A DNA stretch of 64,000 nt from Cupriavidus sp. 2SB (GTDB lineage: Bacteria; Pseudomonadota; Gammaproteobacteria; Burkholderiales; Burkholderiaceae), in the NCBI RefSeq assembly GCF_005503625.1, contig NZ_SCMX01000024.1:1-64000 (forward strand), given 5' to 3'. Every line of letters begins with the position of its first letter. Position 1 is the stretch's first letter. Positions 21,043 to 48,129 of this stretch are shown here, in pieces. The notes beneath the pieces are model-generated. The model saw only the letters and a program-made list of their open reading frames with translations, did no database searches and was not told the DNA's origin. Both the position numbers and the translations under genes were made by a program.

Positions 21043-21282
21043 CGGGCGTCGCACGCCGCCCGGCACTGGGCTCATACCGGCCCCGAACTGGAAAGCGACA
21101 TGGAAACCACTAGCAGCCCCATGCGTTGGCCGTTTTTCTTGGTACGTACAAGTCGCCAGAAAATGCATTATAAGGCATTTATGCTTGTTTTTGATGCTTT
21201 TACACTGTGCATGATAACCGTACTTATCAAGCACACGGAAAATAAGGTACGGGTCACCTAGCACTCAGCACACGCCCCCGCC

Positions 21283-21288
21283 TATAAT
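21283..21288 (+). promoter_or_regulatory. -10 box upstream of the KAP-HNH operon
   Basis: TATAAT stands 73 bases before the KAP gene start. The -35 region is poor. The AT-rich stretch 21120-21240 upstream includes AATGC/GCATT inverted repeats and may bind a regulator. Confidence 0.4.
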
Positions 21289-21361
21289 GTGACCCATTCG
21301 CGTGTGTACCGCGCTGGCGCTGGGCCGGCGGGCCGCACGGCTATTCCTGACAGGGGTCCCC

Positions 21362-22786
21362 ATGGCTGAAGTCGCCACCTCCGTGCTTGTGCAACGCCCG
21401 CCGCTGGCGGACATCAAGGTACCGTTCGAAGGCGACCTACTAGAGCGCGGGCCGGTCGCTCATCGGCTGACCGCCTACTTGCAGCGCCTTCAGGTGGGGG
21501 CCGTGATCGCGATCGACGCGCCCTGGGGTGAAGGCAAGACCTGGTTCGGCCGGCACTGGGCCAAGAAGCTGGAGAACGATGGCCACCGCCTGGCGTTCAT
21601 CGATGCCTTTGGGCAGGACTACGCGGAAGATGCCTTCATGGTGTTGTCGGCGGCGGTCCTCAAGCTTTGTGCCGAAGACGCCACAACGGTCGAGGAGGTC
21701 AAGCGCCGCGCCGGCGAAGTCATGCGCGCGTTGCTGCCGGTCGCAACGAAGGCGGCCATCCATCTCGCCGCCACCGCCCTCGGCGCCGGGGCGATGGTGA
21801 CCGCACTCAACCAGGTAGCCGGCCTGAGCGTCGACGGTGATGAATTCGCGGCGGTCGCCAAGCAGGCCGGCGGCAAGGCTGGCGACGTGACCGCCGAGTG
21901 GGTGAAACGTCGTCTCGGTCAATGGGAGGCCGAGCAGAGGAGCGTGGAAGGGTTCCGTCAGATCCTCGCGGAGTTTGCCCAGCGGACATTCAAGGAGACG
22001 GGCAAGCCCGTCGTCGTCGTCGTGGACGAACTCGACCGCTGTCGACCCGCCTTCGCTGTAGCGCTGCTGGAGCGCATTAAGCATTTCTTCGACGTGCCGC
22101 ACCTGGTGTTTGTCCTGCTGATGAACCGCGATCAACTGGAAAAGGCCATCCGTGGCGTGTACGGAGCCGAGACCGACGCCACGGCCTATCTGGGCAAATT
22201 CCTGCACCTGTCGTTGCGTCTGCCCAAGGTACAGGAGCGCGACTTAAACACGGATCACCCAACGCGCCGATTTGTCAGGTCGGTCGCGGCCGATCTTGGT
22301 CTTCGAGACGGGGACTTTGTGGCTTACTTCGCGGCGACTGCGGTCCTATTCAATCTGTCCCTGCGCGAGATCGAGCGCGGCTGCACCCTCTTTGCACTCA
22401 CCGACGGTAGACAGGAGGCGCTGCGACCCTATCTGATCGCGCTCAAACTCAAGCGCCCCGACCTTTATCACGGCTTAAAAGATCCTCTTGGCGCAGATGG
22501 AGCGCATCGCGAATGCTCCGCATTCTTAGATGAAGAATTGGCCAGGCTGGTCCGGGAATTGAGCAGGCAGTGGCAGAAACCCGTGGCGCGGCATGACTTG
22601 GGCTTTCTCGGGTCGTATTTAGATGGCCTGCTTTGCTTTCACGGCATTTTCGTGGGACGTCGTGGTGCCATGACGGAGGAGGATTCCCGAAAGGCCAACG
22701 AGGCCATGCACGGCATTTTCGGCCCACGTGAGCCGGAGCGCGCGTTCGCCCGGGCATTGAGCGCCATCGACCTGGACGTCCAGTAA
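21362..22786 (+). CDS. KAP-family P-loop NTPase
   Basis: This protein of 474 residues has Walker A APWGEGKTWF (K59) and Walker B VVVVDELDRCRP (D222, E223), the DELDR form typical of KAP NTPases. A predicted hydrophobic segment (near residues 125-150, AAIHLAATALGAGAMVTAL) lies between them, as in many KAP proteins with membrane insertions. F-plasmid PifA, a phage-exclusion protein, belongs to this family. The start at 21362 lies downstream of a TATAAT box; a GTG at 21302 is too close to it. The HNH gene follows after 42 bases, so the two are probably co-transcribed and act together. Confidence 0.9.
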   Translation: MAEVATSVLVQRPPLADIKVPFEGDLLERGPVAHRLTAYLQRLQVGAVIAIDAPWGEGKTWFGRHWAKKLENDGHRLAFIDAFGQDYAEDAFMVLSAAVLKLCAEDATTVEEVKRRAGEVMRALLPVATKAAIHLAATALGAGAMVTALNQVAGLSVDGDEFAAVAKQAGGKAGDVTAEWVKRRLGQWEAEQRSVEGFRQILAEFAQRTFKETGKPVVVVVDELDRCRPAFAVALLERIKHFFDVPHLVFVLLMNRDQLEKAIRGVYGAETDATAYLGKFLHLSLRLPKVQERDLNTDHPTRRFVRSVAADLGLRDGDFVAYFAATAVLFNLSLREIERGCTLFALTDGRQEALRPYLIALKLKRPDLYHGLKDPLGADGAHRECSAFLDEELARLVRELSRQWQKPVARHDLGFLGSYLDGLLCFHGIFVGRRGAMTEEDSRKANEAMHGIFGPREPERAFARALSAIDLDVQ

Positions 22787-22828
22787 CTTGCGACGACTCC
22801 CGTCCGACGCAAACCACCACCACAACCC

Positions 22829-24157
22829 ATGGCCTTCCGCGACCCTCAAACGTTGCAGCAACTGACCCGCGCTCACTTTCACGCCGCCGCCGACGCGTGG
22901 CGGGCGGGGCGGCGAGCGGCCTCGCTCCGACCCACTACCGACTGGAACGTGGAAATCAACGGGGGATGGTACCCCACCAAGGCGATCACCGGCGTCGCCC
23001 ATGAACTGGCGGGCTTTGGCGAATTGACTCGCGAAACGCTCGCCGGGGATGCCGCCCGCCGCCGGTTGAAGGCGCTCGGCTTCGAGCTTGATCGCCGCCT
23101 GTCGAAGCGGGCCGTGAAAGCTGCGCACGTCGAAGCCGCCGCCCGCGACCTGCTTGCCGCCGGCCAGACCGAAGCCTTCGATTTCCGCGGCAACCGGTGG
23201 CTCGTGCAGGTTGGAGATCACTGGTACGGATACCGGAATCTGGTGCGCCGGGCCGCTCATTGGGCCGGGCTGCCGGAGATCCGTGATACGAACCTCACCG
23301 AACCACAGGGTGGCCTCTGGCGCGATCGGCTGCGCGAGCTGGGCTTTCGCCTCAGCGTGGAGGAGCGCGAAGGGCCTGCGATCGCGCCCCGCGCTGAAGC
23401 CACCGCCGAAGACCTGACAGTGGACGCCGTGCGCGCCGGCGCCGCGGCCTGGGATGCCAAGGACGCCGCATTCCAGCAGGCGCATGCCTCCACGGGCTAC
23501 AACGTCTGGATCGACGGCGAGCCCTATCCGCCCAAGGCGATCGGGCTGCTGGCCGCCGAATCGCTGGGCCTGGCGCCGCCCACCGGATACGGCTACGGCA
23601 CCATGAACGGGCCGTGGTATCAGAAGCTGGCTGCGCTCGGATTTCCGGTCCTGCGCAAGGGCGAGACGCCGGCTGGCGACGGGGATCGGGAAAGCCGAGC
23701 CGCCGCGGACGTCGAAGCGGTCAAGGCTGACCGGGCGCTGGACGCCACCACAAAGCAGCGCCTGGTAGACGCACGCTTGGGCCAAGGACGCTTTCGCAGC
23801 CAGCTTGAGGGCCATTGGGATGCAGCGTGCGCCGTGACGGGCGTGCGGGTCCGCGCGGTGCTGCGAGCCAGCCACATCCAGCCGTGGGCCACCAGCAACA
23901 ATGACGACCGCCTGGACCCACACAACGGCCTGCTGCTGGTGGCCAACCTCGATGCGCTGTTCGACCGTGGACTGATCAGCTTCGCAGACGACGGCACGTT
24001 GCTGGTCGGCAAGGGACTGCCAGACGATGCCGTGCGCGAGCTCGGCCTGGGTCAGCTGCGCCTGCGGGATGACGCCAAGGGGGATGCTGCCCGGCGTGCC
24101 GCATTCTTGGCCGTGCACCGGGCCAAGTACCGCTACGACGATGCCGCATCAGCCTGA
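22829..24157 (+). CDS. HNH endonuclease with ScoMcrA-like N-terminal repeats
   Basis: This protein of 442 residues has a C-terminal HNH nuclease domain: CAVTGVRVRAVLRASHIQPW, then DPHNGLLLVANLDALFDRG. The N-terminal part holds three similar units, seen best in WNVEINGGWYPTKAITG (unit 1) and YNVWIDGEPYPPKAIG (unit 3). They resemble the N-terminal head domain of ScoMcrA, a modification-dependent restriction enzyme. It therefore probably recognises modified or foreign DNA and cuts it. It follows a KAP NTPase and its end overlaps the recombinase start by 17 bases. Function in phage defence is an inference. Confidence 0.88.
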   Translation: MAFRDPQTLQQLTRAHFHAAADAWRAGRRAASLRPTTDWNVEINGGWYPTKAITGVAHELAGFGELTRETLAGDAARRRLKALGFELDRRLSKRAVKAAHVEAAARDLLAAGQTEAFDFRGNRWLVQVGDHWYGYRNLVRRAAHWAGLPEIRDTNLTEPQGGLWRDRLRELGFRLSVEEREGPAIAPRAEATAEDLTVDAVRAGAAAWDAKDAAFQQAHASTGYNVWIDGEPYPPKAIGLLAAESLGLAPPTGYGYGTMNGPWYQKLAALGFPVLRKGETPAGDGDRESRAAADVEAVKADRALDATTKQRLVDARLGQGRFRSQLEGHWDAACAVTGVRVRAVLRASHIQPWATSNNDDRLDPHNGLLLVANLDALFDRGLISFADDGTLLVGKGLPDDAVRELGLGQLRLRDDAKGDAARRAAFLAVHRAKYRYDDAASA

Positions 24158-26321
24158 ACCGGCCATGGGCACCGCCGCCATCGAGGACCTGGAAACAGCC
24201 CCGTCCAAGCGAAGCCCGCGCCGGCGGCGGCGCTCCGTCACGCGTCGGCAGCTGCATCGCGGGCATTTCGGATTCCTGCGGGCCATCATTCAGGGGCTGC
24301 ACGCACGGGCCATGTGGGAACGGTACCTGATGGAAGAGGGCGAAATCGAGGCCGATCAGGAACTGCTCGCACGCTCCCCGGAGGTTGAGGAGGCCGACTG
24401 CGACACCGATCCCGCCGCGCACGCCTTCGCCGCCCATCCCAAGGTCCGCCGGGTCACGGCGTGGCTGCGCAGCGAGCTCGTCGCCGCCGCGACCCGGGCC
24501 CAGCGCCCCGGTACCGCTCGCCGCCTGAAGCTGGAGGCCAAGGACCTCCGGAGGCTCGGCCAGAAGGGGCTGGGCCTGCCGTCGCTCGAGGAGTTTGTGG
24601 CCGAGACCGGCATGGACGGCTTTGGCGAGTCCGAGCAGCTGGCCGCCTACGAGGAGCGCTACGGCAACGCCCTGAAGCGGGAGTCCAAGCGTGCCCGGAT
24701 GATGCGTCGCCAGCTCGAGGCCATCGACTGGCTCGAGGAACGGTACGCCCAGCCCGTCCTCACGGGCGACGCCTGCCGCGCGTGGCTGGCGGAACCCCTC
24801 GCGGAGCGGCTGGAGGCGGCCGGCGTCCGGACGCTGGAAGATCTGCTCGATCGCATCGACGGCCTGGGCGCCGCCTGGGCGCGCGGCCTGCCGGCGATCG
24901 GCGCCGGCAAGGCGAGGGCAATCGAAGCTTTCCTGGCCACCCACGCGGAGACGCTGCGCCGGTCGGTCGGCAACCACGTGACCGTCCCGCGCCGCAAGCG
25001 CTACGCGCACGAGTTAGCCATGGTCGTCCCCCGCGGCAAGGAAAACGCTCTGGTCCCGCTCGACAAGCTTGTGCTGCCCGCCCATCTGGACGGTCGGGAC
25101 GGCGCCTACCGCCTGCCGCAGGCCCGCTGCCTAATCAACGCCCACAACGACTACGAGGCGGTGCTGTCCTGGCTGCGCTCCAAACCCGGCCTGGCGCCGG
25201 ACCAGATCTTGGGCCTGCGGGAAAAGCGCAAGGATGTCGGCACGGGGCAGGGGCCTTATGACTGGCTGCACTACCTGTCAAACACCCAGCGCGCGTACCG
25301 GAAGGAAGCGGAGCGCTTCCTGCTGTGGTCGATGCTGGCCAGGGGAAAGCCCTTGTCCTCCATGGACACGGATGACTGCATGGCGTACCGGGACTTTCTG
25401 GCCGACCCGCCGGAGGAATGGTGCGGCCCGCGCTCGCGGGAGCGTTGGACACCCCTCTGGCGGCCCTTCGAGGGACCGTTGAATCCCCGCGCCCAGGGCT
25501 ATGCGATCGGCGTCCTAGCCAACCTGTATGCCTACCTCAACGCCAAGAACTACCTGGCCGGCAACCCGTGGCAGGGCATCCACGTGCCGACCAGCGCCAA
25601 ACCGGAGCTGGACGTAGGCCGAAGCCTGACCGAGGACCAGTGGACCTTTGTCAAAGGATGTCTCGCTCGCCTGCCGGCTACGTCCATCCATCGGCGGCTG
25701 CAGGTTGCCTTGCCGCTGCTGTACTCGACCGGCCTGCGCCTGTCGGAGGTGGTCGCCGCCAGAACAGACGACCTGGAGTGGGTCTGCCTGGCCCAGCCCG
25801 GTACCGGCGATCGAGAGGAGGGCTGGTGGCTCAGCGTGATCGGCAAGGGGAACAAGCTGCGCCGCGTTCCGGTACCGGATGCCACGGTCGAGACGTTGGG
25901 CAAATACTTGGAATCCCGGGGGTTCGACCCTGATCCAGCCCGGTGCCGCGGTGTGGCGCTGCTGGGCCACGCAACCGACCAAGCGGAACGGGCAGGGGGG
26001 TGGGCCAAGGTAGACACGGCCCCCGCCGAGGCGGGATTGGCGGCGACCACGTTGTACCGGCAGATCAAGCGGTTCTTCCAGGCGTGTGCACTGGAGCTGG
26101 AAGCGGTCGACCCCCGGGGCGCCACCCGCCTGGCCGCGGCCAGCACACATTGGATGCGACACACCCATATTTCCCATGCGCTGGCTGCCGGCGCACCACT
26201 CGAGACAGTCAAGCAGAACGCGGGCCACGCTTCGCTCGATACCACCACCCGGTACGTCACTACCGAGGATGCGCGGCGTATGGCGGCAATGAAACGCTTC
26301 TTTGAAGGAGACAATGCATGA
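24141..26321 (+). CDS. Large tyrosine recombinase (integrase)
   Basis: This protein of 726 residues is far longer than typical phage integrases. The long N-terminal part includes a helix-hairpin-helix-like region (RTLEDLLDRIDGLG, then LPAIGAGKARAIEAF), like the DUF3701-containing integrases of Burkholderiales. A core-binding domain follows, then the catalytic domain: R533 in STGLRLSEVV, K569 in IGKGNK, H670-x-x-R673 in HWMRHTH, H696 in AGHASLDTTTRY and nucleophile Y705. All catalytic residues are present. It overlaps the HNH gene by 17 bases and the nucleotidyltransferase by 4 bases, so it belongs to the KAP-HNH operon. A paralogue is truncated at the window start. Confidence 0.93.
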   Translation: MPHQPEPAMGTAAIEDLETAPSKRSPRRRRRSVTRRQLHRGHFGFLRAIIQGLHARAMWERYLMEEGEIEADQELLARSPEVEEADCDTDPAAHAFAAHPKVRRVTAWLRSELVAAATRAQRPGTARRLKLEAKDLRRLGQKGLGLPSLEEFVAETGMDGFGESEQLAAYEERYGNALKRESKRARMMRRQLEAIDWLEERYAQPVLTGDACRAWLAEPLAERLEAAGVRTLEDLLDRIDGLGAAWARGLPAIGAGKARAIEAFLATHAETLRRSVGNHVTVPRRKRYAHELAMVVPRGKENALVPLDKLVLPAHLDGRDGAYRLPQARCLINAHNDYEAVLSWLRSKPGLAPDQILGLREKRKDVGTGQGPYDWLHYLSNTQRAYRKEAERFLLWSMLARGKPLSSMDTDDCMAYRDFLADPPEEWCGPRSRERWTPLWRPFEGPLNPRAQGYAIGVLANLYAYLNAKNYLAGNPWQGIHVPTSAKPELDVGRSLTEDQWTFVKGCLARLPATSIHRRLQVALPLLYSTGLRLSEVVAARTDDLEWVCLAQPGTGDREEGWWLSVIGKGNKLRRVPVPDATVETLGKYLESRGFDPDPARCRGVALLGHATDQAERAGGWAKVDTAPAEAGLAATTLYRQIKRFFQACALELEAVDPRGATRLAAASTHWMRHTHISHALAAGAPLETVKQNAGHASLDTTTRYVTTEDARRMAAMKRFFEGDNA

Positions 26322-26845
26322 CCCTGCTCCTGAACAACCAGCAGATGCGGTTCCTCCAGGCCATGGATGACGTCGGTGTGAAGTATCTGGTGATTGGCGG
26401 CTGGGCGTTGCGAGCTCACGGCGTCAATCGTCGAACCCATGACCTCGACGTGTGGGTGAGTCGATCAGGTGACAATCCAGAGCGGATTCACAAAGTTTTA
26501 TGCGGCATGTGCGGGCCAGGTGCAGATCGTTTCCTGGGGCCGCTACACGAACCTTTGAAACGGCTGGCGATGCCTGACGCGGCAAATCCTGAGATCGACA
26601 TCCTGACTTCCATCGGCGAGCTGGATTTCGATGCTGTCTACGCCGCAAGCAATATGGCAAACATCGGGACTATGCCGCTCCGCGTACCCAGTGCCGCCGA
26701 TCTATTGCGAACGAAACAAGTCGCAATTGCCTCGACGCAGGAGCGTATCGACAAAGCTGAATGGCATGGGCAAGAGCTCCACCAGGCCGAACTGCAGATG
26801 GCGAAGGACCAGGCTGATATCAATCTCTTGCAACATAAGCTATAA
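26318..26845 (+). CDS. AbiEii-like nucleotidyltransferase
   Basis: This protein of 175 residues carries the pol-beta-type nucleotidyltransferase motif GGWALRAHGVNRRTHDLDVW (G-G then D-x-D). Such proteins include AbiEii/MenA toxins of abortive infection and antibiotic adenylyltransferases. The length and the C-terminal helix region fit the short AbiEii-like group. Its ATG overlaps the recombinase stop (ATGA), so translation is coupled. No separate antitoxin gene is visible beside it, unlike AbiE. A role as the effector or a regulator of the KAP-HNH module is possible but unproved. Confidence 0.82.
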   Translation: MTLLLNNQQMRFLQAMDDVGVKYLVIGGWALRAHGVNRRTHDLDVWVSRSGDNPERIHKVLCGMCGPGADRFLGPLHEPLKRLAMPDAANPEIDILTSIGELDFDAVYAASNMANIGTMPLRVPSAADLLRTKQVAIASTQERIDKAEWHGQELHQAELQMAKDQADINLLQHKL

Positions 26846-27014
26846 GTTCGCCACCTCGACAACGTGAACGGTCATCCGTGTCCAGCACGCTAGAGCTTCC
26901 CCACCTCGAATAGGTAGATGGGATCGCGCACGGGCTTAGGCAAGCCGTTTACTTAGCGTGGAACCTTGCGAGGAAACCGGCTAGGATTGACCTTCTTTAA
27001 CTACAGGGAAACCT

Positions 27015-27245
27015 ATGAAATACGAATACACCTTTATGGACATGACCCACGCTGTCGAGGGCGAACCCGAAACCGCCACCATGCTCCTTCAGATCACCAC
27101 GGACGTGCCGGTACCTCACCTGGACAAGGGCAATACGGTGCGCCCCAAGAACGCACCAGTTGCCTGGCTCGTCGATCGAGTGTCCATGAACCTGGAAAAG
27201 CTCGGCGAAGGCGTTATCGGCATCGCCGTCTTCGTAGTTCGCTAA
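27015..27245 (+). CDS. Small unknown protein
   Basis: This protein of 76 residues (MKYEYTFMDMTHAVEGEPET) has an alternating strand pattern and ends in a hydrophobic strand IGIAVFVVR. A weak GGGAAA site precedes the ATG. No family is recognised. The 169 bases before it show no gene. Confidence 0.5.
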   Translation: MKYEYTFMDMTHAVEGEPETATMLLQITTDVPVPHLDKGNTVRPKNAPVAWLVDRVSMNLEKLGEGVIGIAVFVVR

Positions 27246-27310
27246 GTCGAAAACAACCGCTCTACCACCACGCGGCAAGATAGGGCGGTGCTGAAGCCTC
27301 TCTCCCGATC

Positions 27311-27808
27311 ATGTCTTTTTACTCGCTCGAACTTCCCGTTTTCCAGGAGCTCGCCACCACATCATCCCCGATGCTGGTAACGGTCGACTCGCCCGAGTGG
27401 GCGAGGAACGCGTCAGAGCAATTGGGCTACTATTTCAAGCGCGAACTGGGGTTCGATTTTCCTCCGATGGAAGCCAGCGAACGAAGGGGGCATTCCAGCT
27501 TTGCGCCATACGAGATCTACCTCTTTCACGAGACCGCGTACGACCTCCTAGAGGAAGACGGTCCCGTTTCTAATCGCGTATTCGGCGCATGTGGACTACG
27601 ACACGCCACCTTCGAGAACGAAACCGAGCCCCGGTGGGAAATGCAATGGGTATGGCTGCACCCGTTTTTCCGGCATCGCGGCCACCTGGCCAAAGTCTGG
27701 CCGTTTCTCCGTCAGCGATACGGAGACTTCCTCATCCAAAGGCCGTTGTCTCCTGGCATGGAAACATTCATCGCCAAACACGATACCGCTCACCGCCCGC
27801 TTGACTAA
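27311..27808 (+). CDS. GNAT-like N-acetyltransferase fold protein
   Basis: This protein of 165 residues has in its second half a GNAT-like pattern: the strand VFGACGLRHATFE, the strand MQWVWLHPFFRHRG, then a helix LAKVWPFLRQRYG. It matches the WVHP-x-x-R-x-x-G acetyl-CoA-binding layout seen in ESCO-type and other acetyltransferases. The substrate is unknown and the neighbours do not suggest one. Assignment is by motif only. Confidence 0.6.
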   Translation: MSFYSLELPVFQELATTSSPMLVTVDSPEWARNASEQLGYYFKRELGFDFPPMEASERRGHSSFAPYEIYLFHETAYDLLEEDGPVSNRVFGACGLRHATFENETEPRWEMQWVWLHPFFRHRGHLAKVWPFLRQRYGDFLIQRPLSPGMETFIAKHDTAHRPLD

Positions 27809-27930
27809 GCAGCGCCCTTAACTGTGTATAAGTTCACCGGCCAGACGACGTCACGCGTTAGGAAAACCGTCTCTTGAGGAAGAAGATCAAGGGCTGAAAA
27901 TGGAGATCCAACAAACAACGGAAGCACCCA

Positions 27931-28158
27931 ATGCTCAAACGAATCAAGCGCTGGTACGTAGGTGAGTGGATTATTGAACCGGGTACCTTAGTCGGCGACA
28001 CGGCGTCTCCCATCTGGCCATCAGCGTATAGGGAGTATCACTGGACTGCTAGGACAGTGCGGTTCGCCGCCAGGGCGATCAAGAGGCGGGGCGGCAACGT
28101 CCTAGTCGTCCTCAGCTGCCTCGCCTCGTGTGTGGCCATCGCCGACTACGCTTTTTAG
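27931..28158 (+). CDS. Small putative membrane protein
   Basis: This protein of 75 residues has a basic N-terminus (MLKRIKRWYVGEW) and a C-terminal hydrophobic segment (NVLVVLSCLASCVAIADY) that could span a membrane. No family is recognised. The stretch 28159-28448 after it holds no gene that I can support. Confidence 0.5.
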   Translation: MLKRIKRWYVGEWIIEPGTLVGDTASPIWPSAYREYHWTARTVRFAARAIKRRGGNVLVVLSCLASCVAIADYAF

Positions 28159-28448
28159 TAGGCGGACCCGCCGCTAGCCCCTCGGCCGGTCCACGGACGG
28201 CCCGGCGTCGATTGACGCTCTTCGCACTGAAATCGAGGCTTCCTTGTGCTTGTAGAAGCTTCAACTTGGACCATGAAGCCCGGCATCCTCATGTGATCTA
28301 TTGTTGTTGTCTAGGCTAAGTTGAAATGTCCAAGCGGACTTCCTGATTTAGCCCCTACAAGTTGTTGGATACATAACATTTATTACGTTAAATTCGAGGA
28401 CGAGGCCGACGTGCCAACGGCACTCTCTCGCCTGGCCGTTGCGTTTGA

Positions 28449-28571
28449 ACCTACAATGAGCGCCACCCGCACAAAGCCCTGAAATATCGCTCACCGCGCG
28501 AGTTCAGACGGACTGCAGTGTCATCAACCTAGCGGTGTCTGCGTGTCCTGAGGTACAGGGGCAACTCCAGT
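28449..28571 (+). mobile_element. Remnant of an IS3-family element (3' end)
   Basis: The frame from 28452 reads YNERHPHKALKYRSPREFRR and ends at TAG 28530-28532. This is the C-terminal signature of IS3-family transposases. About 40 bases later comes GTACAGGGGCAACTCCA (to 28569), typical of the terminal repeat of IS3-family members. The 5' part of the element is missing. Confidence 0.75.
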
Positions 28572-30391: not shown

Positions 30392-30557
30392 CCTAAGCCC
30401 TTGATCAACACTTTTCTGCCGGTGAGTTCCCCGGCGGCCCGCCTCTGCGGATGCGCTACGTCGGTGGGTGGCGGGTAAGGTAATGCGCTTTTCGCCTACT
30501 GTCGGCGACAGTTGGATTGACTACTCTGCTGGTATCCCCCCATTTCAGGAGTGCAAG

Positions 30558-31460
30558 ATGGCTGCGCGCTCTATCGCCTCGCTGTCGATCAGCTTCGGTC
30601 TCGTTTCGATACCAGTAAAGGTGTTCTCCGCAACCGAGAGCAAAGCTGCGATCGGGTTCAACCTCCTGCACAAAGGGTGTGGATCTAGGTTGCGGCAACA
30701 GTACATCTGCCAGCGCGAAGGTGTGGTGGTCGATCGAGCTGACATGGTGAAAGGTTACGAGTTCGAGAAGGACAAGTACGTCATCTTCGAGCCCGATGAA
30801 CTGAAAGCCCTCGAAGAAGCCACTCAGCACACCATCGACATCATTGCCTTCATGCCGTTGGCTGCGATCGACCCAATCTACTACGACAAGGCGTACTACC
30901 TGGGGCCAGACAAACGCGGCGGCAAGCCTTACAGCCTGCTATCGGAAGCGCTGCGCGCGACTGGCAAATGCGCGTTGGCTAAATGGAACTGGAAGGGCAA
31001 GCAATACATGGTGCAAATCCGCGTCGGCGACGATGGTCTGATCCTGCAGCAGCTCCTTTACGCAGACGAAGTTCGCTCGATGGCGGATCTGCACGTTGAA
31101 ACCGTCGGCGTGTCCAAGGCAGAACTTTCGCTCGCCGAACAACTGATTGAGCAAAACTCGGTCGCCGGATACGAGCCGTCCGAGTACACCGACGAGGAAA
31201 AGCAACGCATCCTCGCGCAAATCGACAAAAAGATTGCAGGCCAGGACATCACGGTGGCATCCGAAGCGCCCGGGGCCGCTACCGGCGCCGAGGTCATCGA
31301 TCTGATGGATGCGCTTCGAAAGAGCATTGGCTCCACTAAGGCGGCGCCTGCCGCGAAGAGCGAGGCTAAGGAAACCACTAAGGCCCCGGCGCGTCGAAGC
31401 GCGAAGCGTGCGGAGCCCGCGCCAGTTGCACCGGCAAAGAAGACAAGGAAGCAAGCGTGA
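30558..31460 (+). CDS. ku: Ku protein for non-homologous end joining
   Basis: This bacterial Ku of 300 residues begins MAARSIASLSISFGLVSIPV at ATG 30558 (upstream AGGAG). It has the Ku core around KGYEFEKDKYVIFEPDELKA and DPIYYDKAYYLGPDKRG, and a basic Ala/Lys/Pro-rich tail that may contact DNA. It binds double-strand ends and recruits LigD, encoded two genes downstream. The next gene overlaps by one base. Confidence 0.95.
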   Translation: MAARSIASLSISFGLVSIPVKVFSATESKAAIGFNLLHKGCGSRLRQQYICQREGVVVDRADMVKGYEFEKDKYVIFEPDELKALEEATQHTIDIIAFMPLAAIDPIYYDKAYYLGPDKRGGKPYSLLSEALRATGKCALAKWNWKGKQYMVQIRVGDDGLILQQLLYADEVRSMADLHVETVGVSKAELSLAEQLIEQNSVAGYEPSEYTDEEKQRILAQIDKKIAGQDITVASEAPGAATGAEVIDLMDALRKSIGSTKAAPAAKSEAKETTKAPARRSAKRAEPAPVAPAKKTRKQA

Positions 31461-32254
31461 TGCGTACCTACTCCTTACGCGAGGTCCTTGACCTTATCGG
31501 CATACCGCGAAGCGCTGTAATGGGCCTCGTCGCCGCCGGAGTGGTCGCGCCTGAGCGAGGCGGACATGGCGAGTATTGTTTTGGCTTCCGCGATCTGGTT
31601 GTGTTGCGGACCGCCGCGGCGTTACGGAAATCGCATATCTCCGCAGGCCGCATCAAGGAGTCGTTGCTTCGTACCAAAGCTATCACCGACAGCGCGTCTG
31701 CTGCGTCGTTGCGTGCCGAAGGTCGAAACATCGTAGCCCGCGCCAGAGGCGACGAGTGGCTGGCAGACTCCGGGCAAATGCGGTTTCAGCTATCGCAAAC
31801 ACGGGAACCCGCTGACGTCGTCACGCATCGGGATAACGACGCGACAGAAGCATACCGGCTCTACGAGGCCGGCAGGCTATTCGAACGGCAAGCGCGGCAT
31901 GCGGAGGCTGAGGACGCTTACCGCAAGGCGCTTAAGCTCGATCCCTCATTGCACGCGGCGTGGGTAGACCTCAGTGCTTTGCTTTGCGACCATGGCAATT
32001 GTGGAGAAGCATTAAGGCTGCTGGCAGAGGCACGTATTCGATTTCCGGAAAGTACCGCACTGCTCTTCAATCAGGCACTGGCATTGGAAGACCTCGGTGA
32101 TTGCATTGGCGCGCAGCATGCCTACCACGATTGCCTGCGTCTAGACCCATTGAATGCCGATGCCCATTTCAACCTGGGCCGACTGTACGACTGCGCGGGT
32201 CGCCCTCAGGAGGCTTTGCGCCACTATAACCAGTATCGGATGATCACGAACTGA
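31460..32254 (+). CDS. MerR-type HTH protein fused to TPR repeats
   Basis: This protein of 264 residues has an N-terminal MerR-like winged helix (YSLREVLDLIGIPRSAVMGL, with FGFRDLVVLRTAAALRKSHI). Three tetratricopeptide repeats lie at about residues 125-264, for example AYRLYEAGRLFERQARHAEA and NADAHFNLGRLYDCAGR. Its start overlaps the ku stop and ligD follows after 17 bases. It is therefore part of the end-joining operon and could regulate it or scaffold the proteins. Confidence 0.85.
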   Translation: MRTYSLREVLDLIGIPRSAVMGLVAAGVVAPERGGHGEYCFGFRDLVVLRTAAALRKSHISAGRIKESLLRTKAITDSASAASLRAEGRNIVARARGDEWLADSGQMRFQLSQTREPADVVTHRDNDATEAYRLYEAGRLFERQARHAEAEDAYRKALKLDPSLHAAWVDLSALLCDHGNCGEALRLLAEARIRFPESTALLFNQALALEDLGDCIGAQHAYHDCLRLDPLNADAHFNLGRLYDCAGRPQEALRHYNQYRMITN

Positions 32255-32271
32255 GACAGGGAGTCGAGGGC

Positions 32272-34746
32272 ATGACATCCCGCACGCGTACCCTCGACCG
32301 ATACGACCAAAAGCGCGACTTCTCAATCACGCCCGAGCCGTCCGGTCGCGCCAGGCGCACCCGAAGCGAGGCACGCGCCCTAACCTTCGTTATCCAGAAA
32401 CACTGGGCTCGACGCCTTCACTACGATTTCCGGCTAGAGCTTGACGGCGTATTGCTCAGTTGGGCAGTACCCAAGGGGCCCAGCTTCGACCCCGCGGAGA
32501 AGCGCATCGCGATCCATGTCGAGGACCACCCACTGGATTACGCGACGTTCGAGGGTGACATTCCTCGCGGCCAATATGGCGCCGGCTCGGTCATCGTCTG
32601 GGACCGCGGAACGTGGCAGCCAGTCGGCGATCCGCACCAAGGTCTCGTGGACGGCAAGCTCCTTTTCGACTTGCATGGCCGCAAGCTGGCTGGGCGGTGG
32701 GAACTGGTGCGCATCGCGAAGCCCGGCGACAAATCCGAGCAATGGATCCTGTTCAAGAAACGCGACGCCTGGGCGCGCCCCTTATCGGATTTCGACGTAC
32801 TGACCGCCATGCCCGATAGCGTGTCGGCGGAGCCAGATCTCGCCTCCCTCACGCTGTTAGCGAATGGCGACACGAGCAACAGCGTCCAGAACGCACCGCG
32901 TTCCGGGCTTCCTGCCCAGCTCGCGCCGCAGCTTGCAACGCTTTCGCCCACCGTACCGGTCGGGCCTGAATGGATCATCGAGACAAAGTTCGACGGCTAT
33001 CGTCTTTTGGCCCGCATACAGCATGGGGTAGTGAGACTTTTCACGCGAAACGGTCACGATTGGACCAGCAAGTTCCGGACGCTCGCGCGGGATCTGTCGA
33101 CGCTGCATATCGAGGAGGCGTGGCTGGACGGCGAAATAGTGGTGCTACGAAACGACCTGCCTGACTTCAACGCCCTCCAGAACGCGATCAACGCGAACCG
33201 CAACGACGAGATCGTCTATTTCCTGTTCGACATTCCATACTGGAACGGCCGCGACCTTCGGCAGCTGCGCCTAGACGCCCGACGGGCACACCTTGCGACG
33301 ATTCTTGCTGAGTGCCCCAGTAGGCTACGGTTCAGCGATGCTTTCGATGCGCCCGCGCCGCAAATGTTCAAGGCTGCCTGCGAACTGCAACTTGAGGGAC
33401 TAATGTTCAAGCGCGCCGACGCGCCATACGTATCTGCCCGCACACCCACCTGGCTCAAGGCTAAGTGCAAGCTCCGGCAGGAGTTCGTCGTGGGGGGCTA
33501 CTCCGAAAGGTCAGGCGGGGGCGACGAAGTGGGCAAGCTTTACCTGGGCGTGTACGACGGCAGGGAGCTTCGCTACGTCGGTGGAGTTGGTACTGGATGG
33601 GACGGCGCGACTGCAGCAGAGCTGCGTCGGAGTCTGGAAAAGTCTGTGGTACCGGACATGCCGTTCGACATTTACACGAAAGCCAAGCGCTGGGGCCGTG
33701 GCGGCGATGGCCCGGTCCACTGGGTAAAGCCAAAGATGGTGGTGGAGGTCGAATTCTCCGAGTGGACTCCCGAGGGTCACGTCCGTCACGCGTCCTTCAA
33801 GGGTGTTCGCAAGGACAAGCCACCGATGCAGATCCGCCGCGAGGCCATTCAGACCGCGGTGGCGCCGCAGGGTGTGACTTCGGTGAAGGTCACAAGTCCC
33901 GGCCGTGTCATTGACGAAAGCAGCGGGATCACGAAGCTCGAGCTGGTGCGCTACTACGAGAGCATTTCGGAAAGAATGCTGCCGCACTTGAAGGACCGCC
34001 CACTTTCACTGGTGCGCGCGCCTGAAGGCATCGGAAAACCACAGTTTTTCCAGAAGCACGCAGAGACCGCTATTCCCGGACTGACGGAGCTGCCGGCGTC
34101 CTTGTGGCCCGGCCACGGCTCGCTGCTCGCTGCGAACTCCCCGGAAGCGATTGTCGCAGCCGCGCAGATGAACGTGATCGAATTCCACACCTGGAACTCC
34201 GTTGCACGTCGCATCGATACCCCTGACCGCTTCATTCTCGACCTAGACCCGGGCGAAGGGGTCTCCTGGCTCACGATGCAGGAAGCCGCGCTGCTCGTTA
34301 AGACGCTGCTCGACGAGCTGGGCCTGCGTTCCTGGCTGAAGACCAGCGGTGGCAAAGGCCTGCATGTGGTCGTCCCTTTGACGGGGCGGCAGAACTACGA
34401 AACGGTGAAGGATTTCTCTCGCGCCATCGTGCTGCACATCGCGTCTGTTCTACCGGAGCGCTTTAGCTCGAAATCGGGGCCGGCCAACCGCAAGGGCAAG
34501 ATCTTCGTCGACTACTTGCGGAATGGCCATGCTCAGACGACGGCCGCTGCGTTCTCCGCACGGGCTAGGCCCGGCATGGGCGTATCGATACCTATACCGT
34601 GGGAAGGGCTGCAAGACATCAAAAGCGGAGCCAACTGGAATATTCGCAACGCCCGTGAGTATCTGAGCTTCGAGCGCGAGGACCCTTGGCGAGACTTTTG
34701 GTCGACAAGACAATCGGTGGCGAGAGGTATCAAGCTGTTGCGCTGA
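32272..34746 (+). CDS. ligD: Multidomain DNA ligase D
   Basis: This LigD of 824 residues has all three domains in the order phosphoesterase, ligase, polymerase. The phosphoesterase has HWARRLHYDFRLELDGVL and HVEDHPLDYATFEG. The ligase has the adenylation lysine K239 in ETKFDGYR and LEGLMFKRADAPY. The primase-like polymerase has the acidic motif LDLDPGEGVSW and TSGGKGLHVVVPL. It processes, fills and seals broken DNA ends bound by Ku. Confidence 0.97.
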   Translation: MTSRTRTLDRYDQKRDFSITPEPSGRARRTRSEARALTFVIQKHWARRLHYDFRLELDGVLLSWAVPKGPSFDPAEKRIAIHVEDHPLDYATFEGDIPRGQYGAGSVIVWDRGTWQPVGDPHQGLVDGKLLFDLHGRKLAGRWELVRIAKPGDKSEQWILFKKRDAWARPLSDFDVLTAMPDSVSAEPDLASLTLLANGDTSNSVQNAPRSGLPAQLAPQLATLSPTVPVGPEWIIETKFDGYRLLARIQHGVVRLFTRNGHDWTSKFRTLARDLSTLHIEEAWLDGEIVVLRNDLPDFNALQNAINANRNDEIVYFLFDIPYWNGRDLRQLRLDARRAHLATILAECPSRLRFSDAFDAPAPQMFKAACELQLEGLMFKRADAPYVSARTPTWLKAKCKLRQEFVVGGYSERSGGGDEVGKLYLGVYDGRELRYVGGVGTGWDGATAAELRRSLEKSVVPDMPFDIYTKAKRWGRGGDGPVHWVKPKMVVEVEFSEWTPEGHVRHASFKGVRKDKPPMQIRREAIQTAVAPQGVTSVKVTSPGRVIDESSGITKLELVRYYESISERMLPHLKDRPLSLVRAPEGIGKPQFFQKHAETAIPGLTELPASLWPGHGSLLAANSPEAIVAAAQMNVIEFHTWNSVARRIDTPDRFILDLDPGEGVSWLTMQEAALLVKTLLDELGLRSWLKTSGGKGLHVVVPLTGRQNYETVKDFSRAIVLHIASVLPERFSSKSGPANRKGKIFVDYLRNGHAQTTAAAFSARARPGMGVSIPIPWEGLQDIKSGANWNIRNAREYLSFEREDPWRDFWSTRQSVARGIKLLR

Positions 34747-34800
34747 GGGCGCGTCGCATTCTGAGGCGGCTTCCCCTCGGCGGTCCTTTCTGCTGGCAGC

Positions 34801-35016
34801 CTACTTCTGCCGTGCCGCCGAGACTCTGCGGCGCATCGCGGTCTGAAACGAGACCGGTACACCGGGGTAGATGGTGACAGCCCAATCCCACGCCGCACTT
34901 GCCTCGGTGAAGCGCTGACTTCTGCCAGCAGTGCCGTCCGCGAACAGCGGCGTGGCGTGCCAGTTCTCTCTAATTGGAAGCACGGACACACGGCGAACTT
35001 GCTTGACATGATCCAT
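34801..35016 (-). CDS. Small unknown protein
   Basis: This protein of 71 residues (MDHVKQVRRVSVLPIRENWH) starts at 35016 with GGAG upstream on the minus strand. It contains Trp-rich strands (AAWDWAVTIYPGVPV). No family is recognised. It is convergent with ligD. Confidence 0.5.
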   Translation of the reverse strand: MDHVKQVRRVSVLPIRENWHATPLFADGTAGRSQRFTEASAAWDWAVTIYPGVPVSFQTAMRRRVSAARQK

Positions 35017-35071
35017 TGTTAATGCTCCACCCGTTGCTGGTGATTGCCACGACGAAGAAGACGCCGGGTGT

Positions 35072-35776
35072 TTAATCGTCGACAGCAATGGAATCAAAAG
35101 CAAACTGGACGCGATACCGGACCAGCTCAAGATTTTTCACGGCCTCCGCCGCGTAGCGAACCGGCTCCGGAAAGTCGCCGGCGATGAGCATCCCGCGAGG
35201 CGGCTTCTTGTCTTGGCGAGCGTACCAGCCAAGGTAGCGGGCGATCTGCCCCACCGCGGCGTCTTTGGCATCCCCCACCTTTAATTCGATGACGACGCGG
35301 CGGCCGTTTGCATCTTCCGCAAGGATGTCCACGCGGCCGACATCGATCACAACTTGCCGCTCCACGAATCGCAATCCCTTCTCGAGCGTGCCAAGATTGC
35401 GAATCAAATGTTCTTCCACATCCCGCTCGAAGCTTATAGAAGCCTCGATGCGCTGTTCGATCGCATCGACGGTTTCGACTTCCTGTTCGATCAACGGGTC
35501 TTCACCAACCGGTGCCCACACGTTGGGACCGTGCTTGCTCTCGTCGTAGATAAAGAAGCGCCCATCGTCGGCGCGATAGAGAAACTTCTCTGCCGACTTG
35601 TGATGCAGATATGCCCTCGGCTGATTCACGGCGCAGCCATAGAGATGCGCGGTTAGCGTGCCGGGTGTCCATTTGTCCGGGTATGCAGCGTTGATATGGT
35701 CGCGAATCTCGCGCGACGTGACACCGGTGGGCGAGGATTCAACGAAGTGGCGGACAGCACCTGCCATGGTGGTCAT
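35072..35776 (-). CDS. NucS-like PD-(D/E)xK nuclease
   Basis: This protein of 234 residues has a winged-helix-like N-terminus (SSPTGVTSREIRDHINAAYP). Its C-terminal nuclease domain resembles EndoMS/NucS: a glutamate in DVEEHLIRNLGTLEKGLRFV, D in GRVDILAED, and E-x-K in RRVVIELKVGDAKDAAVGQI, followed by ARYLGWY. NucS-type enzymes cut mismatched or branched DNA. The neighbours are end-joining and SOS genes, so a DNA-repair role is plausible, but a defence nuclease cannot be excluded. A start at 35776 was preferred to the longer frame to 35818. Confidence 0.75.
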   Translation of the reverse strand: MTTMAGAVRHFVESSPTGVTSREIRDHINAAYPDKWTPGTLTAHLYGCAVNQPRAYLHHKSAEKFLYRADDGRFFIYDESKHGPNVWAPVGEDPLIEQEVETVDAIEQRIEASISFERDVEEHLIRNLGTLEKGLRFVERQVVIDVGRVDILAEDANGRRVVIELKVGDAKDAAVGQIARYLGWYARQDKKPPRGMLIAGDFPEPVRYAAEAVKNLELVRYRVQFAFDSIAVDD

Positions 35777-35939
35777 GGGAATTCCTGATTCGTTCGAAGT
35801 TGTCAGAAGGGTGATCAAAATCTAAGAGCCGCACGGCACCTAATGGTGTCATCGGCTCGAGCCGCGAATTGTTAAGGCGGCCGCACTCGGGCTTACCGAG
35901 ACGTGTCCAGTCAGTCTCTTCTATCAAAAGAGGTGGAAA

Positions 35940-38077: not shown

Positions 38078-38080
38078 GCC

Positions 38081-43345: not shown

Positions 43346-43364
43346 CATACTAGGAGGGTTGCCT

Positions 43365-44489
43365 ATGACCGCAACTGAGGTAGAAATCGATCCCTATCCC
43401 TATACGGACTTTGCGAGCCTGACATACCCGCCTCAGTTTGCTGCCGAAGCACTAGGGGTTAGCCCACAAACACTCAAGATCATCGAGCGCGACAACGACC
43501 TGAAGATTTCTCGGGTGCCCCGGGGGTCGGTCGAAGTCCGCAATTATTCGCTGAACGATATCTTTCAGATCGCCCGAATCCGGCGAGAGAGCAAGCACAT
43601 CAAGGGCTTCGCGCGGCCCATCACCATTTCGGTCTTCGTCCCGAAGGGCGGTACCGCGAAAACCACCACCACTTGCAACCTGGCCATTCAGTTTTCCCTG
43701 ATGGGTTTGAAGGTGCTGGTGATCGACAATGATCAGCAAGCTGACGTGTCGACCATGATGGGCTATGACCCTGACCTCACGGCTGAAGAACTCATTGACA
43801 TGGGTATCCCTGGCGATAGGTCCATCAATGGGCACATCGGCAACCTGATGCGCGTTGGCAACTTCTACCAACCGATGTCCCTTGAAGAGGTGGTCAAGAA
43901 GCCCTTTGGTGAGCACGGCCCGCACCTAATCCCCGCGGAAGACTCGTTGGACGATATGGACTCTGCTCTGCGCAGCGCCAATGGCTCGGACTTCCGCTAT
44001 TCGCTGTTCTTCGAGCAGGCTCGCACTGGCACCCTGCCCCACTGCAACTTGTCTAGCTATGACGTGATCATCATGGACAACGCGCCGGCGGGTTCGCTGC
44101 TCTCCCGAAACTCGATGGTGGCTGCGGACTTCTTGATCTGCCCGATTCGCATGGACAAGTTCTCATTCCGGGCACTCTCCCGTCTGGCATTCCGGCTGGG
44201 TGAGTTCGCCAAGGATTTCAAGCGTGCGCCGGAGATTGTCGCGATCCCCACAATGTACGTTCGCAACCGGCCGCGTGTTGAGCGGAACATGGCCAGCCTC
44301 ATCAGCCTGTTTCCCGGTAAGGTCACTGAGAGCCGCTTGTACCATTCGGAGGACTATTCCAAGAGCCTCGAGGACGGCGTTCCGCTGTCGCTCTGGCGCC
44401 CCGGCACTGAAAATTCGCTCGGGGCAATGCGGGAAGTCTTCGAGGAGTTGGTCGCGCGCATCCGCGCAGTTACGGAGGTCGCTAAATGA
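43365..44489 (+). CDS. parA: Type Ia plasmid partition ATPase ParA
   Basis: This protein of 374 residues has an N-terminal DNA-binding region (LGVSPQTLKIIERDNDLKIS) and the deviant Walker A PKGGTAKTTTTCNLA (K94, K99, T100). Further motifs are LVIDNDQQADVSTMMG and VIIMDNAPAGSL. The long N-terminus marks type Ia ParA, which both drives segregation and represses its promoter. ATG at 43365 has AGGAGG upstream. Its stop overlaps parB by 4 bases. Confidence 0.94.
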   Translation: MTATEVEIDPYPYTDFASLTYPPQFAAEALGVSPQTLKIIERDNDLKISRVPRGSVEVRNYSLNDIFQIARIRRESKHIKGFARPITISVFVPKGGTAKTTTTCNLAIQFSLMGLKVLVIDNDQQADVSTMMGYDPDLTAEELIDMGIPGDRSINGHIGNLMRVGNFYQPMSLEEVVKKPFGEHGPHLIPAEDSLDDMDSALRSANGSDFRYSLFFEQARTGTLPHCNLSSYDVIIMDNAPAGSLLSRNSMVAADFLICPIRMDKFSFRALSRLAFRLGEFAKDFKRAPEIVAIPTMYVRNRPRVERNMASLISLFPGKVTESRLYHSEDYSKSLEDGVPLSLWRPGTENSLGAMREVFEELVARIRAVTEVAK

Positions 44490-45595
44490 AACAATCCCGA
44501 CGCCTCGGCCACGATGCAGCGCGGCCGCCAGCCGCTGAGGCCCAGCCTCAGCACATCCAGGGGGTTGTTGTACCCGCGGAGATGCCATCGGCCAATCTGA
44601 ATCGGCCGATGGCAGAGATTCTGCGCGAACAGGGAATCTTGGACGAAGATCCCCTTGCCCCCCCTTCCCCGCTGCAGAGCAAGCCGGCACCATCCGCTGC
44701 ACCCGCTCCGGGTCCTTCGCCTCAGACGCCCCCCCTCTCCGGGGGTGCCGTGGGCGTAACCACCCCCCAGAAGGCTCTGCACATCCCCATCGGATCTCAG
44801 CAGATGCTGCCGATGGACAAGATTGATGTCGGCCCACATCAGCCTCGGCTAGTCTTTGATCAAGACGCCCTAGCTTCGCTGACAAGCACCATTGATCTCG
44901 TTGGGCTGAACAATCCGATTACCGTCCGACGCAAGGAAGGCGGTCGTTTTGAGCTCATTGCCGGCGAGCGTCGTTTCAGGGCTTTCCAACTGAAGCACGA
45001 GTCATATATTCCGGGCTTTGTCCGTGACCTTAGCGAGAAGGAAGCCGCGATCCTCGCAATGACAGACAACGATGCCCGGGAAGACCTGTCTGATTTCGAA
45101 CGCGCCCTGGGTTATCAGCGGCTACTGAAGTTGGGGCATTGCCTCAACCAAATGGACATCTCCCGGTGCGTCGGTCGAAGCATGGCCACCGTCAGTCGGT
45201 GCTTGGCTTACTTCAAGTTGCCGCAGGTAGTGATCGACATGCTCACGCAAAACCCACGGCTGATTGGCACAAAGGTTGTGGCCGATTTCGTCGCGTTCCA
45301 TGAACAGGGATGCACTGAACTGGTGACCGCGGCCGTTGTTAAGATAGAAAAGGGCTTGTCCCAAGAGAACGCCCTGAACTGGCTGAAGGCCGAGGCCCGG
45401 AAGCTCAAGAACCCGGCGGCTGTCGTGATACCACGCCGCCTGCAGATGTCCGGGAAACCAGTCGCTGACGCCAAGATCGACGGGCGTAACCTCATTCTGA
45501 AGTGTCCGAAAGACGTCAATCCGGAGCTGCTACTTCGCACGATCGAGAAGTTCCTCTCCGAAGCTGCTGCGGATGACCTTGAAGAGGCGGCATAG
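44486..45595 (+). CDS. parB: Centromere-binding protein ParB
   Basis: This protein of 369 residues has the ParB/Srx CTPase-type N-domain: IDVGPHQPRLVFDQDALASL, the GERRFRAFQLKH box, and a helix-turn-helix (NQMDISRCVGRSMATVSRCL). A dimerisation region lies at the C-terminus. A Pro/Ala-rich linker occurs near residues 55-90. It binds parS-like palindromes located directly after the gene. ATG overlaps the parA stop. Confidence 0.94.
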   Translation: MKQSRRLGHDAARPPAAEAQPQHIQGVVVPAEMPSANLNRPMAEILREQGILDEDPLAPPSPLQSKPAPSAAPAPGPSPQTPPLSGGAVGVTTPQKALHIPIGSQQMLPMDKIDVGPHQPRLVFDQDALASLTSTIDLVGLNNPITVRRKEGGRFELIAGERRFRAFQLKHESYIPGFVRDLSEKEAAILAMTDNDAREDLSDFERALGYQRLLKLGHCLNQMDISRCVGRSMATVSRCLAYFKLPQVVIDMLTQNPRLIGTKVVADFVAFHEQGCTELVTAAVVKIEKGLSQENALNWLKAEARKLKNPAAVVIPRRLQMSGKPVADAKIDGRNLILKCPKDVNPELLLRTIEKFLSEAAADDLEEAA

Positions 45596-46732: not shown

Positions 46733-48070
46733 TCAGGCAGCGTTCTGTTCCTCTGCCTGTCGCTTCACGTACTGGGCCAGTTCGACCTTCAATGCCTTAC
46801 GCGCCATAATTGCCGCCTCATCCGGCCTAGCCTTTACCTTCTGCCGCCGCGCAGCCATTTGGAACGTCGTCTCCTTGTACAGTCCATCAAGGACCGCAAG
46901 TCGCTCCTCGTCCGTCATCGAGGCGAAGATAGCCAGACCCTGTTCAATGTCGCGCTCAAGATTGCGCTGAAACTCGATCTCAGCGACTGAAACCATTGGC
47001 TTACTCCGGACCGCTTCGGTTGGGCTACCTAACGCCGCCTCGCGCTCCATTTCGCTAAGTGCCCAGCCCTCTTTGATTGCGGTCATGAGGTAGGCACCGG
47101 GCGACTTCACGCCTCCAACTTTGACCCGATACCTCACCAGCTCAATCGCCGCACGGATTCGCTCATCCGTGTTCACTTCGCGATTGCTGATGATCTCATT
47201 GATCTGCCTGGTGCTCAGCCCAAAGCCCTTCACGAGAGTCTCATACAGATCCTTCAGCTCATGTGGTTGCGCAAAATCCAAAACGAGCTTGCCCTCTGCG
47301 TTGTCCCTAAGCTTGAATCGAATCGCTGCGACGCGTCGCGAGCCCTGCGCGGTCTTCGTTTCGTACTCAACGTAGAGATCGGTCAGTTCATTGATTTGGG
47401 CAATGTTCTTATCCAGGACCAACCGCTTGAACTGCTTGTACTCGGTGAGTGATTTGACAGCGTCAGCATTGACCCACTTCCTGACGTCTTCGATCGGAAG
47501 CCAATTCGTAGTACCCATGAATCGAAGAGCGCCCAAACGCTCATACAGGATGTACGCGTAGTGGCTGAGTGCTGCAGACATGCGCAAGGATAGATAGGTA
47601 TAGCGCTTCGGATCTTTGAGCTGTCGACGGATCATCTCGTCGACCTTGAACACAACGCGCCCGCCTGCGATCCCTACGGAACCAAGAAGCGGCACTGACA
47701 CCCATTGCGGGTCGCCGCCGCCATCGCGCTCAACCGAGACTTGAACCGATGAGCTCTGGCACTCGCGCAGGGCCTTCTTTAGGTGCGCGACGTTGTTCGA
47801 TGTTTCGAACTTAGCAAGCCATTTGAAATAGCCGAGCTCGATATCGTAATGCTCAAGATCCGGGTTCTCCGACACCGTGAGCCACAACGCGTTGATGGCC
47901 CGCCTTGCCACGAGGGACATAGGGGTGACGTCAATCAGAACATTGGTTTTGCGGTACCCAATGTCGCGCGTGGATTCCGTTATTGCGGTATTAGGCCCGA
48001 GCTCCTCGCGGACAGCGTTGAAGATATCGAAACCCAGCTGCTCCTGGATGTTTTTTGGGAGGTTAGACAT
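46733..48070 (-). CDS. repA: Replication initiator, Rep_3 family
   Basis: This protein of about 445 residues has the two-winged-helix pattern of Rep_3 initiators: ESTRDIGYRKTNVLIDVTPM, a region with SLRMSAALSHYAYILYERLG, and the second wing around EYKQFKRLVLDKNIAQINEL. It should bind the iterons upstream and open the origin. The start at 48070 (MSNLPKNIQ) is preferred; a GTG at 48091 is possible and neither has a good ribosome-binding site. Inverse iterons cover its upstream region, which suggests autorepression. The C-terminal extension after about residue 330 is longer than in small-plasmid Rep proteins. Confidence 0.9.
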   Translation of the reverse strand: MSNLPKNIQEQLGFDIFNAVREELGPNTAITESTRDIGYRKTNVLIDVTPMSLVARRAINALWLTVSENPDLEHYDIELGYFKWLAKFETSNNVAHLKKALRECQSSSVQVSVERDGGGDPQWVSVPLLGSVGIAGGRVVFKVDEMIRRQLKDPKRYTYLSLRMSAALSHYAYILYERLGALRFMGTTNWLPIEDVRKWVNADAVKSLTEYKQFKRLVLDKNIAQINELTDLYVEYETKTAQGSRRVAAIRFKLRDNAEGKLVLDFAQPHELKDLYETLVKGFGLSTRQINEIISNREVNTDERIRAAIELVRYRVKVGGVKSPGAYLMTAIKEGWALSEMEREAALGSPTEAVRSKPMVSVAEIEFQRNLERDIEQGLAIFASMTDEERLAVLDGLYKETTFQMAARRQKVKARPDEAAIMARKALKVELAQYVKRQAEEQNAA

Positions 48071-48129
48071 GGCAGAGTGCGCCCAATGCACTAAGAGACT
48101 GGCGTAATATCTCCGTAATGGTGTAACGA

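Follow-up and report, generated by a model that had tools for sequence, protein, structure and literature searches.

The operon at positions 21,362 to 26,845 of the window (the whole stretch of 64,000 nucleotides analysed here) is real and partly recurrent, yet its four genes do not form a fixed defence system. We consider it fairly probable that it belongs to a site-specific recombination locus, involved in multimer or cointegrate resolution, of a pMOL30-like conjugative plasmid, with an exchangeable slot for defence-like genes. In this explanation, a tyrosine recombinase with a DUF3701 domain would bind and recombine a core of about 30 bp, which lies directly upstream of the promoter driving the operon to which the recombinase itself belongs. 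The exchangeable slot would be the stretch from this promoter to the recombinase gene, occupied in the window by an ATPase of the KAP family (PDC-S20) together with an HNH nuclease bearing putative repeat-type recognition domains, and on other plasmids by one of these, another gene or none. The simplest route of slot exchange would be homologous recombination between two conserved flanks, the promoter and the recombinase gene.

The operon comprises four open reading frames on the forward strand, which encode a KAP P-loop NTPase of 474 amino acids (21362..22786; PF07693, KAP_NTPase, 4e-31), an HNH nuclease of 442 amino acids with three N-terminal repeats followed by HNH_2 (22829..24157; PF13391, 9e-14), a giant tyrosine recombinase of 726 amino acids (24141..26321; DUF3701, PF12482, 1.8e-19; Phage_integrase, PF00589, 2.5e-13) and a small nucleotidyltransferase-like protein of 175 amino acids with a GG...DLDVWV motif and weak distant relatives (26318..26845). 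A gap of 42 bases separates the KAP and HNH genes, the HNH and recombinase genes overlap by 17 bases (counted with the first ATG of the recombinase), and the recombinase and nucleotidyltransferase-like genes overlap by 4 bases. These coordinates and spacings bear out the original prediction, and the single transcript that it proposed for the four genes is likely; a simple sigma-70 scan, which misses the conserved TATAAT upstream, found no promoter-like site within the operon. The observation is confirmed, and its original interpretation is partly supported.

The recombination core (21206..21235, forward strand) immediately precedes the operon promoter and consists of the arm TGTGCATGATAA, the 6-bp spacer CCGTAC and the arm TTATCAAGCACA. 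At a fixed distance from it stands the conserved motif AAAATAAGGTACGGGT (21239..21254, forward strand), a candidate accessory binding site in which most columns are near-invariant across 17 loci, and further downstream TATAAT (21283..21288, forward strand), the probable -10 box of the operon, with position-specific conservation at +72 to +77 from the core. The same order is found across the 17 loci, with AAAATAAGGTACG at fixed spacing after the core and then a TATAAT-like box, and the inner TGATAA-N6-TTATCA of the core is invariant in 17/17; on the left-hand side of these loci, no accessory motif is conserved beyond a T-run at -13 to -10. Within the window the core match is unique (0 expected in 100 shuffles), and the core pattern matches 13 of 60 Cupriavidus genomes compared with 0 matches for the reversed-pattern control. 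Within a locus, the outer arm halves agree at 77 of 102 positions, more than between loci (49.8 after permutation; p = 5e-5), which would be expected if a single protein binds both arms. By these sequence features, 21206-21235 is built like a tyrosine-recombinase core and adjoins the operon promoter. Solitary cores (TGATAA-TCTTTC-TTCTCA) without an adjacent recombinase operon were found at L114 (G041:C179) and L115 (G058:C1), and may be relics or places of secondary integration.

DUF3701 is the defining domain of the TnpR/Tn4401 subgroup among the simple tyrosine recombinases (PMC8138268). The recombinase has the features of this subgroup, with DUF3701 located N-terminal to the core-binding and catalytic domains and with catalytic pentad and tyrosine intact; residues R533, K569, H670, R673, H696 and Y705 are invariant in 12 homologues. 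A genus-wide search of Cupriavidus returned a close family with 60-92% identity as well as more distant relatives. Klebsiella accounts for 578 of the 1305 plasmid records with a recombinase relative, and these Klebsiella relatives are taken to be mostly Tn4401. More distant homologues adjoin TniA/TniB/TniQ/TnsD transposition genes. The window itself holds TniA/TniB/TniQ-like transposition genes (1806-6181, forward strand) beside a Gabija system (6572-9311, reverse strand) with a GajB-like UvrD helicase (2.7e-136) and a GajA-like OLD nuclease (6.5e-212). A related TniA/TniB/TniQ-like set in Cupriavidus sp. EM10 (L059) adjoins a DUF3701 recombinase 48-49% identical, and from this neighbourhood the DUF3701 family may also serve Tni-type transposons.

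The locus is plasmid-borne and not part of a chromosomal defence island, as indicated by its identity with an EM10 plasmid and by the ParA/ParB/Rep3 genes at 43.4-48.1 kb. The window region is 99.9% identical to p352-2 of EM10, a conjugative plasmid of rep_cluster_332, the replicon cluster that it shares with pMOL30 of C. metallidurans CH34. Backbone genes of the window are ParA and ParB (43359..45595, forward strand; ParA-type ATPase PF13614, ParB as annotated in EM10) and a Rep3-type replication initiator (46733..48091, reverse strand; PF01051 and PF21205). The recombinase likewise adjoins ParA/ParB or Rep on plasmids from Variovorax, Hydrogenophaga, Azoarcus and Cupriavidus. The loci with ParA/ParB/Rep as backbone neighbours are L035, L036, L038, L040, L148, L149, L150, L157, L160, L161, L189 and g178. 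From the par/rep context and the exact natural junctions described below, the natural inference is that the recombinase probably keeps plasmid copies separate through multimer or cointegrate resolution. Between the right end of the module and ParA/ParB, the window also contains a cluster of Ku, LigD, ImpB/MucB-type and error-prone DNA polymerase (DnaE2-like) genes (30468-41230, forward strand), which is a plasmid-borne end-joining and mutagenesis set.

The order of core, KAP and/or HNH or nothing, and giant tyrosine recombinase recurs at 18 independent loci, which are mostly on plasmids and often have ParA/ParB/Rep adjacent. HNH occupies the slot at seven loci (the pMOL30 group, USMAHM13, USMAA2-4, L034, L037, L040 and L041), KAP at five (L035, L036, L038, L113 with a decayed recombinase, and L189, the second locus of USMAA2-4), both at one, which is the window alone, a 199-aa protein at one (L042), and none or a small ORF at four (L039, L043, g178 and WXY105 p2). 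L042 (G000:C155) is a second such locus of the window genome, with the core TGATAA-TCTTTC-TTATCA, a recombinase 65% identical and ParA/ParB nearby; its slot protein belongs to no known family. KAP or HNH is found immediately upstream of the recombinase at 13/18 loci, compared with one KAP match in the whole 6.98-Mb genome, and this association therefore exceeds chance. The tight coupling is also repeated across loci: at KAP/recombinase junctions the overlap is 1 or 4 bases, or else the genes are 6 bases apart, and at HNH/recombinase junctions the overlap is 4 bases. Since the upstream gene varies and the nucleotidyltransferase-like gene is present only in the window and EM10 among the loci compared, the conserved unit is the slot plus the recombinase. 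The recombinase had originally been regarded as an unusual extra in a defence transcript; instead, this recombinase, of a resolvase-like DUF3701 type that is common on plasmids beside ParA/ParB/Rep, is what stays constant, and the variable guests are the defence-like genes, which explains the presence of a giant recombinase in an apparent defence operon.

HNH identity is independent of recombinase identity, and hence the slot content turns over: the Spearman coefficient is -0.02 for 28 pairs among eight HNH-bearing loci, and is descriptive, as the pairs are non-independent. Between the window and pMOL30 (L032) the recombinases are 92% identical and the HNH proteins 37%, and between USMAHM13 and USMAA2-4 (L148-L149) the values are 96% and 40%; for L037, recombinase identity is 70%, yet HNH identity 75%. 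KAP identity tends to rise with recombinase identity, although not significantly (rho 0.77, p 0.07, 6 pairs), so that KAP may be partly co-inherited. The core and promoter beside the slot remain similar across loci, and the turnover fits an exchange via homologous recombination between conserved flanks; rapid divergence of HNH in place is the alternative to slot exchange.

Natural recombination has taken place at the core. In pMOL30, the P141 flank is followed by TGTGCATGATAA-CCGTAC-TTATCAAGCACA, HNH and recombinase. BS1 p1 has pMOL30's left flank and spacer, then TTAGCAAAGCA and a 71.5-kb stretch with czc genes (length computed from core positions 50220 and 343092 on the 364,407-bp circle), which terminates in TGTGCATGATAA-CTACAC-TTATCAAGCACA, HNH and recombinase. 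The same two junctions are present in C. pauculus CCUG 12507, where the right spacer is CTCTTA; contig C54 of C. pauculus, considered as an empty attachment site, proved to be the left junction of this island. With pMOL30 as reference, the metal-resistance island thus sits exactly at the core in two strains with both junctions exact, and its ends were not found in pMOL30. The same HNH-recombinase module recurs behind differing left flanks and spacers. The island represents a site-specific integration at the core, which the DUF3701 recombinase itself presumably performed. Another recombinase could have inserted the island, but none is annotated inside it (in an incomplete gene table). The czc cluster of the island (BS1 p1, L183/L152) encodes cobalt-zinc-cadmium efflux, and core insertion is a likely entry route for this metal-resistance determinant. 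In C. campinensis (L153:9064-12502), the P141 flank and the core are separated by another segment, roughly 3.4 kb long and containing three hypothetical genes, which suggests repeated insertions at this position.

The module of the window spans from the core at 21206 to a dif-like (XerCD) site, TGGATACATAACATTTATTACGTTAAAT (28366..28393, forward strand; arms TGGATACATAA-CATTTA-TTACGTTAAAT), and contains a further ORF of 165 aa (27311..27808, forward strand; phrog_36762, 1.3e-35). These two ends lend themselves to the reading of a self-mobile defence element, in which the recombinase acts as integrase, the core and the dif-like site are the left and right attachment sites, and the 7.2 kb of 21206-28393 move as a unit. 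In its favour, the homologous pMOL30-type module of 11.58 kb is sharp-ended at core and dif-like site in several contexts, terminating in three of them exactly after GATGCACATAA-CGTCTA-TTATGTTAAAT, and the right end of the window module is joined exactly to a truncated insertion sequence. The latter is a transposase 3' remnant cut at the dif-like site (28398..28570, forward strand; 174-bp match to a longer sequence in the same contig and other genomes), whose assignment to the IS3 family is inferred from its reading frame; the sequence right of 28394, considered as a conserved flank, proved to be this remnant. However, no clean empty site for the module was found. Of the mobility suggested in the original prediction, the recombination of the locus in nature holds. 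The entry of islands at the core accounts for the differing left contexts, the boundaries vary independently (pMOL30 and C. campinensis have a common right flank but differ on the left), and most relatives lack the right end and are located in plasmid backbones. Moreover, dif-like sites occur in 57/60 genomes, mostly one to four per genome and approximately one per replicon; this near-ubiquity speaks against the motif as a second site of the recombinase, and the module probably ends on the right at the XerCD dif site of the plasmid itself. We therefore regard a self-mobile element as unlikely. Because the right end is dif-like instead of a second core, XerCD may take part in recombination at the locus. 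Four closely similar plasmids of another genus have the whole region in common, and the ends could not be mapped from them.

Both slot guests resemble components of phage defence or restriction. KAP matches the PDC-S20 profiles of PADLOC at 1.6e-71 over residues 19-373, in a library that gives no curated cut-off, and the slot KAP relatives at other loci are also PDC-S20. Its description as a phage-blocking protein of the PifA type survives in so far as PDC-S20 is a phage-defence candidate; this match scores far above that to PifA (2e-13), and the protein has 474 aa compared with about 720 aa. QatABCD does not apply either, since QatA reaches 51 bits against a cut-off of 600 and QatB, QatC and QatD were not found among the KAP neighbours scanned. 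Sequence comparison found no solved relative of KAP, and PDC-S20 is not mentioned in the literature searched. The HNH domain (residues 297-408) has as its best relative VcaM4I (6yex, 2.3e-27), a modification-dependent restriction enzyme (PMC7897488). The predicted ScoMcrA-like character holds as a resemblance to type IV restriction enzymes, but the match to ScoMcrA itself is weak, and the curated PT-DNA restriction model of the ScoMcrA type gives 19.9 bits against a cut-off of 180. The N-terminus of HNH consists of repeats of about 80 aa with a G-x-x-Y/F-P-x-K motif; reading of the sequences gives three repeats for the window HNH and between one and three for those of other loci, and HNH of L037 is without the middle repeat. 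Pfam gave no match in HNH outside HNH_2, an EVE/PUA reader domain included. A structure model of low confidence (pLDDT 62) renders the repeats plausibly, and Foldseek recovers with it only VcaM4I and, weakly, ScoMcrA. By sequence, the repeats look like modular target recognition. Downstream in the pMOL30 module lies a further PADLOC candidate, the PDC-S26 nuclease. KAP and HNH would, by these resemblances, guard plasmid and host against phages or incoming DNA.

Alternatively, KAP and HNH could be partners of the recombinase that regulate or assist recombination, or could act in plasmid addiction or competition, instead of in phage defence. The tight translational coupling kept at many loci and the recurrence of the same two families in the same slot are consistent with such a role. 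However, the slot gene is missing at g178, L039 and L043, HNH changes without a change in the recombinase, and KAP relatives are found away from DUF3701-type recombinases (L191 and L192), all of which leaves it quite improbable. Some loci have an empty slot, and the recombinase therefore does not need the slot genes; any functional link between the two is putative.

The fourth gene is, within the preferred explanation of a plasmid recombination locus with an exchangeable slot, a late local addition to the operon. It had been described as AbiEii-like, a description that is not upheld: no AbiEii domain is matched in Pfam at E 0.01, an AbiEi partner was not found among its neighbours (the recombinase and ORFs with a hypothetical annotation), the gene is missing at other loci, and it is accordingly not assigned to AbiEii or the type IV toxin-antitoxin systems. 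Its best Pfam hit is a sub-threshold match to an aminoglycoside-2''-adenylyltransferase (PF10706, 18.0 bits, cut-off 21), and a single-sequence model of the protein (pLDDT 44) was discarded. The conserved co-occurrence of the four families, named in the original prediction itself as a point on which the system would stand or fall, does not hold, as the complete set was found only in the window genome and its near-twin, p352-2 of EM10; the fixed four-gene system is ruled out by this co-occurrence across loci. A single four-component defence system with recombinase and nucleotidyltransferase as effectors, for which the one coupled operon speaks, is very improbable, because elsewhere HNH and KAP separately accompany the recombinase and the nucleotidyltransferase never does.

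The core and AAAATAAGGTACG together form a sequence signature by which large betaproteobacterial plasmids can be searched for variable KAP/HNH genes. In pMOL30-type plasmids the core is the entry place of the czc metal-resistance island. Should the guests prove protective, new immune genes could be sought in plasmid maintenance loci. A bolder and rather doubtful extension is that core and recombinase actively exchange defence genes or islands between co-resident plasmids, with the number and sequence of the HNH repeats setting the target, in which case large plasmids would hold a dedicated recombinase-linked socket for swapping anti-phage or anti-plasmid genes.

Several known systems share parts of this organization. 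The TnpR type of Tn4401 is alike in DUF3701, in its core-binding and catalytic domains and in being a simple (Xer-like) tyrosine recombinase, whereas the recombinase described here has 726 aa, is a par/rep-adjacent backbone gene of large plasmids and not part of a Tn3-family transposon, and has other genes between its site and itself. TnpI with its IRS in Tn4430 and Tn5401 is similar in layout: its core, an inverted repeat interrupted by a short spacer, directly precedes the recombinase operon, and the promoter is adjacent, but here the accessory motif is on the right at a fixed distance and a transposase is absent. The KAP domain is common to PDC-S20, PifA of the F plasmid and QatA, the latter two being more distant; the KAP described here differs in being linked to a recombinase. 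VcaM4I (EVE-HNH) and ScoMcrA also have their HNH domain at the C-terminal side, whereas the N-terminus here is made up of between one and three repeats, each of about 80 aa, and, as far as tested, not of an EVE or sulphur-binding domain. Xer/dif modules of Acinetobacter plasmids are variable modules bordered by recombination sites with 6-bp spacers; the present locus differs in having its own recombinase and its own core on one side, and a dif-like site on the other side only. In BIM elements of C. metallidurans, the recombinase is paired with a partner protein with a predicted SMC domain (PMC3414803); the partners of the present recombinase family are KAP or HNH. The nearest parallel is offered by Tn3-family transposons, in which toxin-antitoxin pairs immediately precede the resolvase gene and adjoin res (PMC7157771). 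These pairs are likewise guests that are located by the resolution site and use the promoters there; the guests described here differ in encoding a KAP ATPase and a restriction-like HNH nuclease and in residing in plasmid backbones.
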